Assembly: GCA_025454495.1 (NCBI GenBank)
Contig: JALOOI010000087.1
Coordinates: 1-32,707, forward strand
Direction of reading: 5' to 3'
DNA: 32,707 bases
Source: Anaerolineae bacterium
GTDB lineage: Bacteria > Chloroflexota > Anaerolineae > Aggregatilineales > Phototrophicaceae
Made by a program: the position numbers and the translations under genes. The notes below the pieces were generated by a model, which saw only the letters and a program-made list of their open reading frames with translations, had not been told where the DNA came from and did no database searches. Below, piece by piece: positions 13,439-28,979 of the stretch (positions are counted from its first letter, which is position 1; each line of letters starts with the position of its first letter).

Positions 13439-13540
13439 ATGTCCGCCATGTTACCTGTGCTGTGCTGTCCCATGTGCTGCTGTATGATGAACGGTCTCGC
13501 ACAGATACCGGATGGCCCTGCTTTGAAACGACGTGGATAA
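13439..13540 (+). CDS. Cys/Met-rich leader peptide
   Basis: A 33-residue frame from ATG 13439, or 30 residues from ATG 13448; both have only a GGA as ribosome site. From the second ATG it reads MLPVLCCPMCCCMMNG and continues to a TAA at 13538-13540. Five Cys codons (13463-13468 and 13475-13483) and three Met codons (13472, 13484, 13487) lie within 27 nt, a composition most unlikely by chance. The stop lies 12 nt before the terminator stem. It should work as a regulatory peptide sensing charged Cys- and Met-tRNA, not as a protein with its own job. Confidence 0.65.
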   Translation: MSAMLPVLCCPMCCCMMNGLAQIPDGPALKRRG

Positions 13541-13552
13541 CACCGAAGCTTC

Positions 13553-13582
13553 AAAAAGTCAGCCAGCACCGGCTGACTTTTT
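13553..13582 (+). terminator. Strong intrinsic terminator in the leader
   Basis: aaaaagtcagcc (13553-13564), 6-nt loop, ggctgacttttt (13571-13582), with the T-run continuing to 13583. The 12-bp stem with A- and T-tracts could stop transcription from either side. Lying upstream of the JAMM gene and 214 nt after fhs, it fits attenuation better than fhs termination. Confidence 0.85.
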
Positions 13583-13624
13583 TCATTCTACGGCCAGGAG
13601 GCCGGGGTACAGGATGCACAGATC

Positions 13625-14059
13625 ATGCCCGTACAGATAGAACTGAGCCGCGCCCTGGCGGCGCACATTGGCCGGCAAATGGCAGCCACCTTCCCCAATG
13701 AAGGCGGCGGTTTTCTGCTGGGCCACAGCACGCCGGCCGCCATCCACATTGTGGATTTGCTTCAGGTGGCGAATGTGTTTGCCAGCGAAGAACAGTATCA
13801 TCGCTACGCCATGACTCCGCAGCACTGGGCCCGCATGGAAGACGAAGCCGAGGCCCGCGGCCTGACCCTGGTGGGCTATTATCACAGCCACCCGCAGTCG
13901 CCGGCCATCCCGTCGGACTATGACCGGGTGCACGCCCTGCCCAATTTTGTCTATCTCATCACCTCGGTGATGGACGGGCAGGCGGCCGAAATGCGGGTGT
14001 GGTGGCTGCGGGCTGACCGCAGCGCCTTCGATGAAGCCCGCCTGATCGTCACCGCGTGA
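13625..14059 (+). CDS. JAMM (JAB1/MPN+) metalloprotease, Mec+/HcyD-like
   Basis: 144 residues. The zinc-protease motif is complete: Glu26 in PNEGGGFLLG, His87 and His89 in YYHSHPQSPAIPSDYD, Ser97 and Asp100. Bacterial stand-alone JAMM proteins cleave the C-terminus of ubiquitin-like sulfur carriers: Mycobacterium Mec+ frees cysteine from CysO-Cys, and Wolinella HcyD removes a terminal Ala from HcyS and later frees homocysteine. The gene opens a cluster with metY, metX, a ThiS/MoaD-like carrier and an E1-like enzyme, so both a trimming and a release role are likely here. AGGA lies 10 nt before the ATG. metY follows after 91 nt. Confidence 0.9.
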   Translation: MPVQIELSRALAAHIGRQMAATFPNEGGGFLLGHSTPAAIHIVDLLQVANVFASEEQYHRYAMTPQHWARMEDEAEARGLTLVGYYHSHPQSPAIPSDYDRVHALPNFVYLITSVMDGQAAEMRVWWLRADRSAFDEARLIVTA

Positions 14060-14093: not shown

Positions 14094-15470
<1,377 letters not shown>

Positions 15471-15484
15471 CCCCCGGCGCTGAC

Positions 15485-15512
15485 GGCGGGGCCCGGTGCG
15501 GCCCCGCCTTTT
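15485..15512 (+). terminator. Terminator between metY and metX
   Basis: Perfect 9-bp stem ggcggggcc (15485-15493) and ggccccgcc (15500-15508), 6-nt loop, then TTTT. The short T-run suggests partial read-through into metX, 43 nt downstream. Confidence 0.7.
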
Positions 15513-15555
15513 CGATGGCTGGCTACAACTCAGGCTGGAGGAACAACAGGCTGCT

Positions 15556-16740
15556 ATGCCCCTGCGAGATTTACTGCCCGGCAGACGTGTCCGCCGTTAT
15601 GATCCGCGCTCGGTGGGCGTGGTGGATCGTTTTGAGGCGCACTTTGCCGAACCGCTGCTGCTGCGCTCCGGGGCCCGGCTGGAGACGTTCACGCTGGCCT
15701 ACGAAACCTATGGCACGCTGAACACCCGCCGCGATAACGCCATCCTCATCTGCCATGCGCTCTCCGGCGATTCGCACGTGGCCGGCTACTACACCGATGA
15801 CCCGGAAGAAAAACCGGGCTGGTGGGATGATGCCGTGGGCCCCGGCAAAATGTTCGATACCAGCCAGTATTTCGTCATTTGCTCCAACGTGATTGGCGGC
15901 TGCCGGGGCAGCACCGGGCCCTCATCCCCCGCGCCGGATGGCCGGCCCTACGCGCTGCGCTTCCCGGTCATCACCATTGCGGATATGGTGCGGGCGCAAA
16001 CGGCGCTGCTGCAACACCTGGGCATCGCGCGGTTGTTCGCGGTGGCGGGGGGCAGCATGGGCGGGATGCAGGCGCTGCAATGGGCGGTGGATTTCCCCGA
16101 CCAGGTGCAAAATGTGCTGTTCATCGCCAGCACGCCGGTGTCGTCGGCGCAGAATATCGCCTTCAACGAAATCGGCCGCCAGGCCATCTATGCTGACCCG
16201 CACTGGCAGCGCGGCAATTACTACGGCAAAGACCGCCCCAACCCCGACCCCGGCCTGGCCGTGGCCCGCATGATCGGCCATATCACCTACATGAGCGAGC
16301 AATCGCTGGAAGAAAAGTTCGGGCGGCGCTTGCAAAAGAAAGACCAGCTCACCTACACCTTTGAGACGGAATTCGCCGTCGAAAGTTATTTGCACTACCA
16401 GGGCTATAAATTTACCGAGCGCTTCGATGCCAACAGCTACCTGTACATCACCCGCGCGCTGGATTATTACGATGTGAGCCAGGGCTACGGCAGCATGGCG
16501 GCCGCGCTGGGCCGCACCACGGCGGATTTTCTGGTGGTGAGCTTTAGCAGCGACTGGCTGTATACCCGCGCCCAGGCGGAAATGCTGGTGCAAGGCTTAA
16601 AGCAGGCTGAGCGCCGGGTAGAGTATGAGCATGTCGAAGCGTCTTTTGGGCATGACTCGTTTCTGGTGGAAGTGGAGACGATGGAGCGCCTGGTGGGCGA
16701 TTATTTGCGCCGGGCCGCAGCGCGGCAGTCGCCCGCCTGA
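15556..16740 (+). CDS. metX: Homoserine O-acetyltransferase
   Basis: 394 residues from ATG 15556. The frame extends back to a GTG at 15496, but that codon lies inside the terminator stem, so it is rejected. GGAGG lies ~15 nt upstream, with AGG nearer. It is an alpha/beta-hydrolase: ICHALSGDSHVAG, nucleophile Ser167 in VAGGSMGGMQALQW, the catalytic Asp in FSSDWLYT and His in SFGHDSFLVE. It makes O-acetylhomoserine (some family members use succinyl-CoA; the acyl donor cannot be settled by eye), the substrate of MetY encoded just upstream. A hairpin at 16784-16806 separates it from the sulfur-carrier gene. Confidence 0.95.
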   Translation: MPLRDLLPGRRVRRYDPRSVGVVDRFEAHFAEPLLLRSGARLETFTLAYETYGTLNTRRDNAILICHALSGDSHVAGYYTDDPEEKPGWWDDAVGPGKMFDTSQYFVICSNVIGGCRGSTGPSSPAPDGRPYALRFPVITIADMVRAQTALLQHLGIARLFAVAGGSMGGMQALQWAVDFPDQVQNVLFIASTPVSSAQNIAFNEIGRQAIYADPHWQRGNYYGKDRPNPDPGLAVARMIGHITYMSEQSLEEKFGRRLQKKDQLTYTFETEFAVESYLHYQGYKFTERFDANSYLYITRALDYYDVSQGYGSMAAALGRTTADFLVVSFSSDWLYTRAQAEMLVQGLKQAERRVEYEHVEASFGHDSFLVEVETMERLVGDYLRRAAARQSPA

Positions 16741-16832: not shown

Positions 16833-17108
16833 ATGGCCAGCATCAAAATTCCTACCCCCCTGCGTGCCTACACCGGCAATCAGGCCGAAGTCACCGTCAG
16901 CGGGGCCACCGTGGGCGCGGCGCTCACCGACCTGGTGGCGCAGTACCCCGACCTGAAGCCGCACCTGTTCCAGGAGGACAAACTGCGGAATTTCGTCAAT
17001 GTGTTTCTGGGCGACGAAGATATTCGCTTCCTGGACGGCGTGGCCACCGACATCGCGCCGGATGCCCGGCTGCGGATTATCCCCAGTATCGCGGGGGGGC
17101 GGTGTTAA
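16833..17108 (+). CDS. ThiS/MoaD-like sulfur carrier with capped Gly-Gly tail (CysO/HcyS type)
   Basis: 91 residues with a ubiquitin-like beta-grasp pattern: short beta strands at the start, VGAALTDLVAQYPDLKPHL helix, VNVFLGDEDIRFLDGVATDI, then LRIIPSIAGG. In family members the C-terminal Gly is adenylated and turned into a thiocarboxylate. Here Gly88-Gly89 are followed by Arg90-Cys91 and the stop, so the tail is capped and cannot be activated until two residues are removed. Wolinella HcyS has a one-residue (Ala) cap removed by the JAMM protease HcyD; the JAMM enzyme encoded at 13625 is the obvious candidate here. GAGGAGAGAG is a good ribosome site. The stop overlaps the next gene's start. 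A 7-G run encodes the Gly-Gly, so the reading depends on that count. Confidence 0.88.
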   Translation: MASIKIPTPLRAYTGNQAEVTVSGATVGAALTDLVAQYPDLKPHLFQEDKLRNFVNVFLGDEDIRFLDGVATDIAPDARLRIIPSIAGGRC

Positions 17109-19658: not shown

Positions 19659-20900
19659 ATGCAACCCCTGGTCGCCAGCCTGGCCGATCTATCCAATGAG
19701 GAAATTAAGCGCTACAGCCGCCACCTCATCATGCCGGAAGTGGGCATTGAGGGGCAGCGCCGCCTGAAAGCCGCCAGCGTGCTGCTCATCGGCACCGGCG
19801 GCCTGGGCAGCCCCACCGCCCTGTACCTGGCCGCGGCCGGCATCGGGCGCATGGGCCTGGTGGATTATGATGTGGTGGATGCCACCAATTTGCAGCGCCA
19901 GGTCATTCACGGCATCAGCACCGTGGGCCTCAGCAAGCTGGACAGCGCCGAAAAGCGCCTGCGCGACCTGAACCCCGATCTGGTGATCGAAAAATACAAT
20001 GTGCCGCTGACCAGTGATAACGCGCTGGAATTGTTCGCGCCCTACGACATCATCATCGACGGCACCGACAATTTCCCCACCCGCTACCTGGTGAACGATG
20101 CCTGCGTGAAACTGGGCAAGCCCAATGTGTACGGCAGCATCTTCCGTTTTGAGGGCCAGCTCAGCGTGTTTTACCCGCAGGCGGGCGGCCCGTGCTACCG
20201 CTGCATGTTCCCGGAACCGCCCCCGCCCGGCCTGGTGCCCAGTTGCGCCGAAGGCGGCGTGCTGGGCATTTTGCCGGGCACGGTGGGCACCATGCAGGCC
20301 ACCGAGGCCATCAAGCTCATCCTGGGCATCGGCCAGCCGATGATCGGGCGGATGCTGCTGTACGATGCGCTGGACATGGAATTTAACACGCTGAAGGTAC
20401 GCCGCAACCCGGAGTGCCCGGTGTGCAGCCGCCCGGCCGCTGAGATCGAACTGATTGATTATGAACAGTTCTGCGGTATGCCCGCGCATGATCGCAGCAG
20501 CTTCACCACGCTGGAGCCGGAGTATGCCGGGATGCACGAAATCAGCGTGCAGGAACTGAAGGCGCAGATGGAAGCCGGCGCGGATGTGGTGGTGCTGGAT
20601 GTGCGCGACCCGCACGAATGGGAGATTGCCGCCATTGACGGCACGCTGCGTATCCCCAAAGGCGACATTCAGCAGGCCAAGAATGCGCTGCTGGCCGGGC
20701 GCAAATTGTACGAGGAAACCGTGCTGGCCCGCATCCCGAAAGACAAAGTGCTGCTCGTCCACTGCCGCAGCGGTAAACGCAGCGCCGATAGCATCAACTT
20801 TTTGAAGGAAGCCGGCTACGATGCTGACAAAATGTTCAACGTCGCCGGCGGCATTCTGGCGTGGGCCAAAGAGATTGACCCCACGCTGCCCACCTACTGA
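19659..20900 (+). CDS. moeZ: E1-like sulfur-carrier adenylyltransferase with rhodanese domain (MoeZ/MoeBR type)
   Basis: 413 residues. N-terminal ThiF/MoeB domain: RYSRHLIMPEVGIEGQ, nucleotide loop GTGGLG at 45-50, DATNLQRQV, DGTDNFPTRYLVND, and two Cys pairs, CYRC and CPVC, for structural zinc. The C-terminal rhodanese domain (~295-413) has VLDVRDPHEWE and active-site Cys369 in HCRSGKRSA. These enzymes adenylate the Gly-Gly end of a carrier and deliver sulfur to form the thiocarboxylate; Mycobacterium MoeZ does so for CysO and MoaD homologues. Together with the carrier at 16833, JAMM, MetY and CysM it completes the pathway. AAGGAGAG is a strong ribosome site. A terminator follows at 20964. 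Confidence 0.93.
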   Translation: MQPLVASLADLSNEEIKRYSRHLIMPEVGIEGQRRLKAASVLLIGTGGLGSPTALYLAAAGIGRMGLVDYDVVDATNLQRQVIHGISTVGLSKLDSAEKRLRDLNPDLVIEKYNVPLTSDNALELFAPYDIIIDGTDNFPTRYLVNDACVKLGKPNVYGSIFRFEGQLSVFYPQAGGPCYRCMFPEPPPPGLVPSCAEGGVLGILPGTVGTMQATEAIKLILGIGQPMIGRMLLYDALDMEFNTLKVRRNPECPVCSRPAAEIELIDYEQFCGMPAHDRSSFTTLEPEYAGMHEISVQELKAQMEAGADVVVLDVRDPHEWEIAAIDGTLRIPKGDIQQAKNALLAGRKLYEETVLARIPKDKVLLVHCRSGKRSADSINFLKEAGYDADKMFNVAGGILAWAKEIDPTLPTY

Positions 20901-28562: not shown

Positions 28563-28614
28563 CTGCTATCCTCTGTTCCCATGCTGTCTGGTGTGCCTGT
28601 GCGTCCCGGTGATG

Positions 28615-28693
28615 AAAAAAGCCAGCAATCCATGAAAAAAGCGTGGCACAATACCCTCAAGTGGGAAGTGTCCACGCTTTAGCGATTGCTGGC
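28615..28693 (-). terminator. Nested double terminator in the cysM leader
   Basis: On the minus strand, the outer stem GCCAGCAATC/GATTGCTGGC (28693-28684 with 28630-28621) is followed by six Ts (28620-28615). Inside it, AAAGCGTGG/CCACGCTTT (28680-28672 with 28646-28638) is followed by its own T-run. Both stems are perfect. Confidence 0.88.
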
Positions 28694-28724
28694 TCAGATA
28701 ATGCTCTGGTTCAGTCGTTGTTGT

Positions 28725-28781
28725 CTAAAGCGGCAGTAACCTCCCGGTGTTCGGACAACAACAACAACATGTGTGCTGCAT
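28725..28781 (-). CDS. Cysteine leader peptide of cysM
   Basis: 18 codons reading MQHTCCCCCPNTGRLLPL, ATG at 28781-28779 and TAG at 28727-28725. AGGGG lies 8 nt before the ATG, and a consensus promoter starts transcription ~22 nt before it. The five consecutive Cys codons are all TGT. It acts as a sensor of charged Cys-tRNA. Poly-Cys leader frames that attenuate sulfur genes are known from mycobacteria; here there is also a clear intrinsic terminator. Confidence 0.85.
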   Translation of the reverse strand: MQHTCCCCCPNTGRLLPL

Positions 28782-28809
28782 GTATTTCGCCCCTGATGAA
28801 CTTAAATTG

Positions 28810-28838
28810 ATTGTAGTGGACGAGCGTCCGTCTGTCAA
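28810..28838 (-). promoter_or_regulatory. Near-consensus sigma-70 promoter of the cysM leader
   Basis: Minus strand: TTGACA (28838-28833), exactly 17 nt, TACAAT (28815-28810). Eleven of twelve positions match consensus, the best promoter in the window. Confidence 0.85.
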
Positions 28839-28865
28839 TAAACGCCGGCTGAGAAAACGCCGCAC

Positions 28866-28893
28866 AAAAAAAGGACGTGGCGAACCGCGTCCT
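28866..28893 (-). terminator. Intrinsic terminator after the 28980 gene
   Basis: Minus strand AGGACG (28893-28888) and CGTCCT (28877-28872) around a 10-nt loop, followed by a run of seven Ts. It separates the gene at 28980-29297 from the cysM promoter. Confidence 0.8.
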
Positions 28894-28979
28894 GGGAGAG
28901 TACCGCAAAAATTATTTTCTATTTTCGGTGGCGCAGGTGTGTCCCTCAATCCGCATCACGGGGACGGTGCGGGTTGCGC

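Follow-up and report, generated by a model that had tools for sequence, protein, structure and literature searches.

A cysteine-codon leader with nested terminators and a covarying antiterminator as a probable transcription attenuator of cysM in the Anaerolineae

For a long time most known leader-peptide attenuators came from the Proteobacteria and Actinobacteria, to which the Firmicutes have been added (PMC2965389), and the Rfam models of such elements covered four amino acids only (PMC3766115). In the Rhodobacterales, the uORFC-8-2 motif upstream of cysS combines a short ORF, in which two Cys codons stand in tandem, with an intrinsic terminator on its 3' side, and attenuation was proposed for it (PMC8632094). 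In mycobacteria, poly-Cys leader ORFs precede cys operons, and conserved terminators were absent (PMC1262725). Translational attenuation in M. smegmatis was reported by Canestrari 2020, as cited in PMC13236596. A cysteine attenuator in the Chloroflexi or at a cysteine synthase was not found in Rfam or in the open-access literature. The initial annotation of the locus studied here had pointed to the mycobacterial leaders correctly and had called the arrangement apparently undescribed. Within the literature searched, this is fair for a cysteine synthase and for the Chloroflexota, but the Cys leader with a terminator before the Rhodobacterales cysS had been proposed earlier.

The window, which is the whole stretch of 32,707 nucleotides analysed, has its nearest matches in MAGs of the Anaerolineae, as the suspected Chloroflexota origin implied. 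On its minus strand, a gene at 28562-27606 encodes a PLP-dependent enzyme (PALP, 7.7e-68) that is, by homology, a CysM-type cysteine synthase; the match to the TIGR01138 cysM model was 1e-106 with 357 bits, below the 394-bit cut-off. The promoter, the ribosome site, the 18-residue peptide with five TGT codons and the two nested T-tailed terminators that had been claimed upstream of the gene were all present on the minus strand. The promoter is of the sigma-70 type with TTGACA at 28838-28833, a spacer of 17 nt and TACAAT at 28815-28810; it matches the consensus at 11 of 12 positions and is the best promoter-like site of the region. Transcription would start near 28803, some 22 nt 5' of the leader ATG. 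Among 57 homologous leaders, 49 had a promoter with at least 10 of 12 matches within 120 nt 5' of the leader ATG (0.8 expected from mononucleotide shuffles). A T-tailed hairpin (GGACGCGGTTCGCCACGTCCTTTTTTT) at 28860-28900 of the minus strand, just 5' of the promoter, probably ends the preceding transcript.

The leader ORF runs from the ATG at 28781 to the TAG at 28725 and encodes MQHTCCCCCPNTGRLLPL in 18 codons, five of which are TGT codons for cysteine at 28769-28755. The SD-like AGGGG (28794-28790, minus strand) is located 8 nt 5' of the ATG. Start and ribosome site are conserved in the homologues and the ORF is predicted to be translated. Four TGT codons in a row were unique to this leader within the 4.7-Mb assembly, and since TGC outnumbers TGT by 44 to 11 in the ORFs of the window, the five-TGT run does not reflect codon bias. 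When the same genome was scanned for four TGY in a row, 480 matches were obtained, mostly TGC repeats. With its ribosome site and its 5' UTR, as deduced from the probable start, the cysM leader is not leaderless.

The 241-nt leader folded at -83.2 kcal/mol, compared to -64.4 +/- 4.9 kcal/mol for shuffled sequences (z -3.86), and none of the 200 shuffles was as low. The Cys codons are also part of a pause hairpin of 12 bp, in which the 5' arm at 28765-28754 pairs with GACAACAACGAC at 28725-28714, as seen by folding and by covariation. The antiterminator is formed by a 5' arm at 28745-28725, which ends at the leader stop, and a 3' arm at 28682-28663, which doubles as the 5' half of the inner terminator. 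The 8-nt pairing CGCTTTAG/CTAAAGCG that had been predicted is exact and joins CGCUUUAG at 28732-28725 to CUAAAGCG at 28682-28675. The size of the antiterminator had been understated, since GGGAGG (28745-28740) pairs with CUUCCC (28668-28663) in a further helix of 6-7 bp outside of this pairing. Together with a middle helix, the antiterminator comprises about 18 bp with -26.5 kcal/mol.

The inner terminator (28680-28635, -21.5 kcal/mol) is formed by AAAGCGUGG at 28680-28672 and CCACGC plus UUU, followed by a U-tract at 28640-28635. The outer terminator (28693-28615, -38.7 kcal/mol including the inner hairpin) encloses it with a stem of GCCAGCAAUC at 28693-28684 and GAUUGCUGGC at 28630-28621 and a U-tract at 28620-28615. 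Six T follow each of the two nested hairpins. A simple terminator scan of the region did not list the two, probably because their stems and loops are outside the limits of the scan. The antiterminator uses up the 5' half of the inner terminator, so that these two exclude each other by a shared stem. The 5' strand of the outer terminator is enclosed in the antiterminator loop and is not used by it, and a pseudoknot that still terminates may form.

The pairings were tested in 57 non-redundant leaders by comparing the duplex energies that each 5' arm gives with the 3' arm of the same leader and with all swapped partners. The antiterminator arms paired with -29.1 kcal/mol with their own partners and with -24.3 kcal/mol over all pairs (z -9.6), and none of 20,000 permutations was as good. 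The z values were 0.7 and 0.8 in two control segments, -9.6 for the outer terminator and -5.3 for the pause hairpin. Taken separately, the G-rich part of the antiterminator had a z of -6.0 and its CUUCAG part one of -5.3. Covariation was analysed in a sequence-only alignment of 33 leaders, where the cells changed on both sides were counted and compared to 500 shuffles that ignore relatedness. The antiterminator had 34 such cells versus 16.4 in the shuffled alignments, both terminators had 49 versus 15.7 and the pause hairpin 11 versus 2.3, and in each case none of the 500 shuffles reached the count. Paired cells were lost when the partners were slid by 1-3 columns, and the inner terminator was paired in 94.6% of the cells across the homologues. 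Of these two lines of evidence, the swap test, whose controls were null, is stronger than the shuffle-based covariation. Both agree with the covariation that was expected for the antiterminator pairing.

These results bear on a translational attenuation as in mycobacteria, where stalling of the ribosome within the poly-Cys ORF would unmask the ribosome site of cysM. Such a mechanism has the precedent of the M. smegmatis cysteine genes, at least as PMC13236596 cites it, and of poly-Cys leaders reported without conserved terminators (PMC1262725). Here, however, two T-tailed terminators with strong covariation stand between the leader and cysM, and the partner of the antiterminator is the terminator stem, not the SD of cysM. 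The distance from the leader stop to the cysM match ranges from about 129 to 411 nt, and the mycobacterial type, a leaderless ORF that begins at the mRNA 5' end, also does not fit a leader with an SD and a probable 5' UTR. We consider translational attenuation very unlikely.

For the conservation of the leader, 80 and 30 cysM loci were fetched. Removal of duplicates left 83, almost all of them in MAGs that carry an Anaerolineae or Chloroflexi label. In 73 of the 83 loci, an ORF with three or more Cys within five codons precedes cysM, and 8 further loci had a shorter leader with 1-2 Cys at the same place (e.g. ACLCLKQGR, LWLRSCCTYKP and AGVCLKLGR). As one locus was cut by a contig end, the conserved Cys codons expected in related genomes were present in 81 of 82 testable loci; L081 had no leader before cysM. 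The covariance model matched all eight of the short leaders, L066 weakly. In the set of 101 loci before removal of all duplicates, at least 3 Cys in 5 codons were found on the forward strand in 86 and at least 4 in 62, compared to 8 and 1 on the reverse strand. One genus-level group has a divergent leader in place of the poly-Cys form, LWLRSCCTYKP or LWLRVCRPYKR with one or two Cys codons (L058, L073).

The order of the elements was constant among the leaders. The Cys codons come first, then UGUCUGAAG and, close to the leader stop, an element rich in G. CUUCAGAC and the first arm of the outer terminator follow, then (CU)GAAGCGUGG, an element rich in C, CCGCGCUUUUU and the second outer arm with its U-tract. 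CUUCAG can pair either back with CUGAAG at the Cys codons, forming the pause hairpin, or forward with (CU)GAAGC. The G-rich and C-rich elements, which pair with each other outside this forward helix, are GGGAGG/CUUCCC in the window, GGUAGUCC/GGACUACC in L055, GGAGUUC/GAACUCC in L054 and GGGGUGU/ACACCCC in L006. A small Cys-rich protein (metal- or redox-binding), whose gene would lie upstream of cysM ahead of ordinary terminators, would also account for a conserved Cys-rich peptide. But the residues outside the Cys run vary (LKRGR, LETHR, LNGGVLTL) while the base pairing is kept, and the end of the ORF follows the RNA arm with its strong preference for the own partner (z -9.6), which makes a functional small protein barely plausible.

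In the phylum, 78 CysM orthologues were sampled. A leader with at least 2 Cys in 5 codons preceded 24 of 27 in the same class and 1 of 51 in other classes, with 2 and 6, respectively, in the reverse-strand controls. The covariance-model matches at E <=0.1 in this sample were all in the same class. The cysM leader is thus largely confined to the class Anaerolineae. A covariance-model scan of 301 Chloroflexota scored 9 candidates per genome and its low tally is not a census; the upstream regions of the orthologues were therefore used for the distribution. The matches L148 and L149 were weak, and L148 lies amid unrelated genes.

The position of the ribosome was modelled with an assumed footprint that reaches about 18 nt to the 5' side and 13 nt to the 3' side of the A-site. 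With the nascent RNA extending to 28663, the full antiterminator was obtained when the ribosome stood at the first or third Cys codon and a partial one at the fifth, whereas none was formed with the ribosome at the stop codon or absent. The claimed geometry held: a ribosome on the first Cys codon left the antiterminator arm free in 57 of 57 leaders, and one at the leader stop covered a median of 76% of the arm (34% at random stop positions). Once the inner hairpin was complete, the terminator was the minimum-energy fold even with a stalled ribosome, and antitermination must therefore be kinetic. Kinetic switching is usual for attenuators.

We conclude, with a probability of about 0.9, that the leader is a ribosome-mediated transcription attenuator and that the transcription of cysM depends on charged tRNA-Cys. 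When cysteine is ample, the ribosome would reach the leader stop and cover the arm at 28745-28725, so that the nested terminators form and the RNA ends at about 28635 or 28615. When cysteine is short, the ribosome would stall on the Cys codons and hold the pause hairpin open. The freed arm would then pair with 28682-28663 ahead of the formation of the inner terminator, and the polymerase would continue into cysM. In an untranslated leader the pause hairpin would form and hold the arm, and transcription would terminate. The attenuator interpretation is supported by the leader ORF, the Cys run, the intrinsic terminators, the antiterminator and the pause hairpin; the homologues with 1-2 Cys codons only and L081, which lacks the leader, count against it, as do the minimum-energy preference for the terminator and the outer terminator strand that the antiterminator leaves unused.

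The cysM leader resembles the his/trp-type attenuators of the enterobacteria (the His, Leu, Thr and Trp leaders of Rfam) in its run of the regulated residue, its pause hairpin, the mutually exclusive antiterminator and terminator and the geometry at the stop codon. It differs from them in the use of cysteine, in its two nested terminators and in its occurrence in the Chloroflexota. Rfam covariance models, including the T-box, gave no match in the window at the gathering threshold, and six homologous loci had no match with an E-value of 0.1 or less. The uORFC-8-2 motif is alike in its tandem Cys codons, its 3' intrinsic terminator and the logic proposed for it. However, it belongs to the Alphaproteobacteria, has the Cys codons at positions 14-15 and precedes cysS and not a cysteine synthase, whereas the leader studied here is upstream of cysM. 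With the mycobacterial leaders the cysM leader shares the Cys-codon runs before cysteine biosynthesis genes, but their mechanism is translational, whereas here there are two intrinsic terminators between leader and gene and a covarying antiterminator.

Other sulfur genes of the relatives also have such leaders. Upstream sequence could be read for 15 cysK loci, and in 14 of them a short ORF with clustered Cys codons was found within a few hundred nt, the one without a Cys-rich leader being L155. The cysK gene of the genome under study (L167) is outside this count as its match stops short of the 5' end. A T-tailed hairpin followed the cysK leader in 11 of 12 examined loci and the own-versus-swapped test gave a z of -3.7, some of the loci being close relatives. 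The Cys-rich leader ORFs 5' of cysK (L152-L154, L156-L166) are mostly followed by terminators; their antiterminator layout is unlike that of cysM, and cysE adjoins cysK in several genomes. The cysM-type RNA model was found before a cysK in L145. The cysS gene was rejected as a member of the regulon, because a Cys leader occurred in 1 of 28 relatives, which is not above the background.

In the window, another leader ORF (MSAMLPVLCCPMCCCMMNGLAQIPDGPALKRRG, plus strand, 13439-13540), with many Cys and Met codons, precedes a JAMM-metY-metX-cysO cluster. It is followed by a terminator hairpin at 13553-13584 (AAAAAGTCAGCC/GGCTGACTTTTT, -16.9 kcal/mol), and no promoter match better than 7/12 was observed for it. 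The first gene of the cluster encodes a JAMM-type protease (Prok-JAB, 13625-14059, PF14464 8.7e-22), the second the O-acetylhomoserine sulfhydrylase MetY (14151-15470, TIGR01326 above cut-off) and the third the homoserine O-acetyltransferase MetX (15496-16740, NF001209 above cut-off). An ORF rich in Cys and Met was found 5' of metY in 10 of 23 relatives, with none on the reverse strand and 0.2 expected from shuffles. These leaders are of the MCMCMC type, and a strong T-tailed hairpin follows most of them.

The related leaders upstream of cysK(-cysE) and of the JAMM-metY-metX operon point to a regulon that is sensed by ribosomes. We lean towards a sulfur amino acid regulon of the Anaerolineae with separate and architecturally different attenuators on cysM, cysK(-cysE) and JAMM-metY-metX-cysO. 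In this regulon, Cys-only leaders would belong to the cysteine synthases and mixed Cys/Met leaders to the homocysteine synthase operons, where one leader would integrate two amino acids. Attenuation could also be triggered by the nascent peptide or by a general slowdown of translation instead of the Cys codons, as the homologues with only one or two of these codons might indicate. However, the Cys density is far above that of the controls, Cys recurs in the different leaders before cysK and, with Met, before metY, and the same test gave no signal above background for cysS; we regard such a trigger as extremely unlikely.

The enzyme had been called carrier-dependent, and the gene context is consistent with this. 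The plus strand of the window encodes a CysO-like sulfur carrier (16833-17108, PF02597 ThiS) and a MoeZ-like E1-type adenylyltransferase with a rhodanese domain (19659-20900, PF00899 and PF00581), besides the JAMM protease. The carrier ends with AGGRC, so its GG is not C-terminal, and exposing the GG may require the protease. Within one family of the Anaerolineae (L146, L147) the order is cysO, leader, cysM and JAMM. The carrier of the window is 41% identical to that beside cysM in L147, and its CysM is 58% identical to the enzyme located between cysO and JAMM there. The cysE gene was absent from 23 of 31 relatives. This context favours a putative carrier route for CysM. In L146 and L147 the attenuator (1400-1660 in both) is internal to the operon, with cysO before and cysM after it, and carrier and synthase could therefore be regulated unequally.

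Our results add a probable cysteine attenuator at a cysteine synthase, with class-wide covariation, from a mostly uncultured phylum, and a covariance model of the cysM leader is now available. The attenuator of the cysM leader is probably how the Anaerolineae control their cysteine supply.
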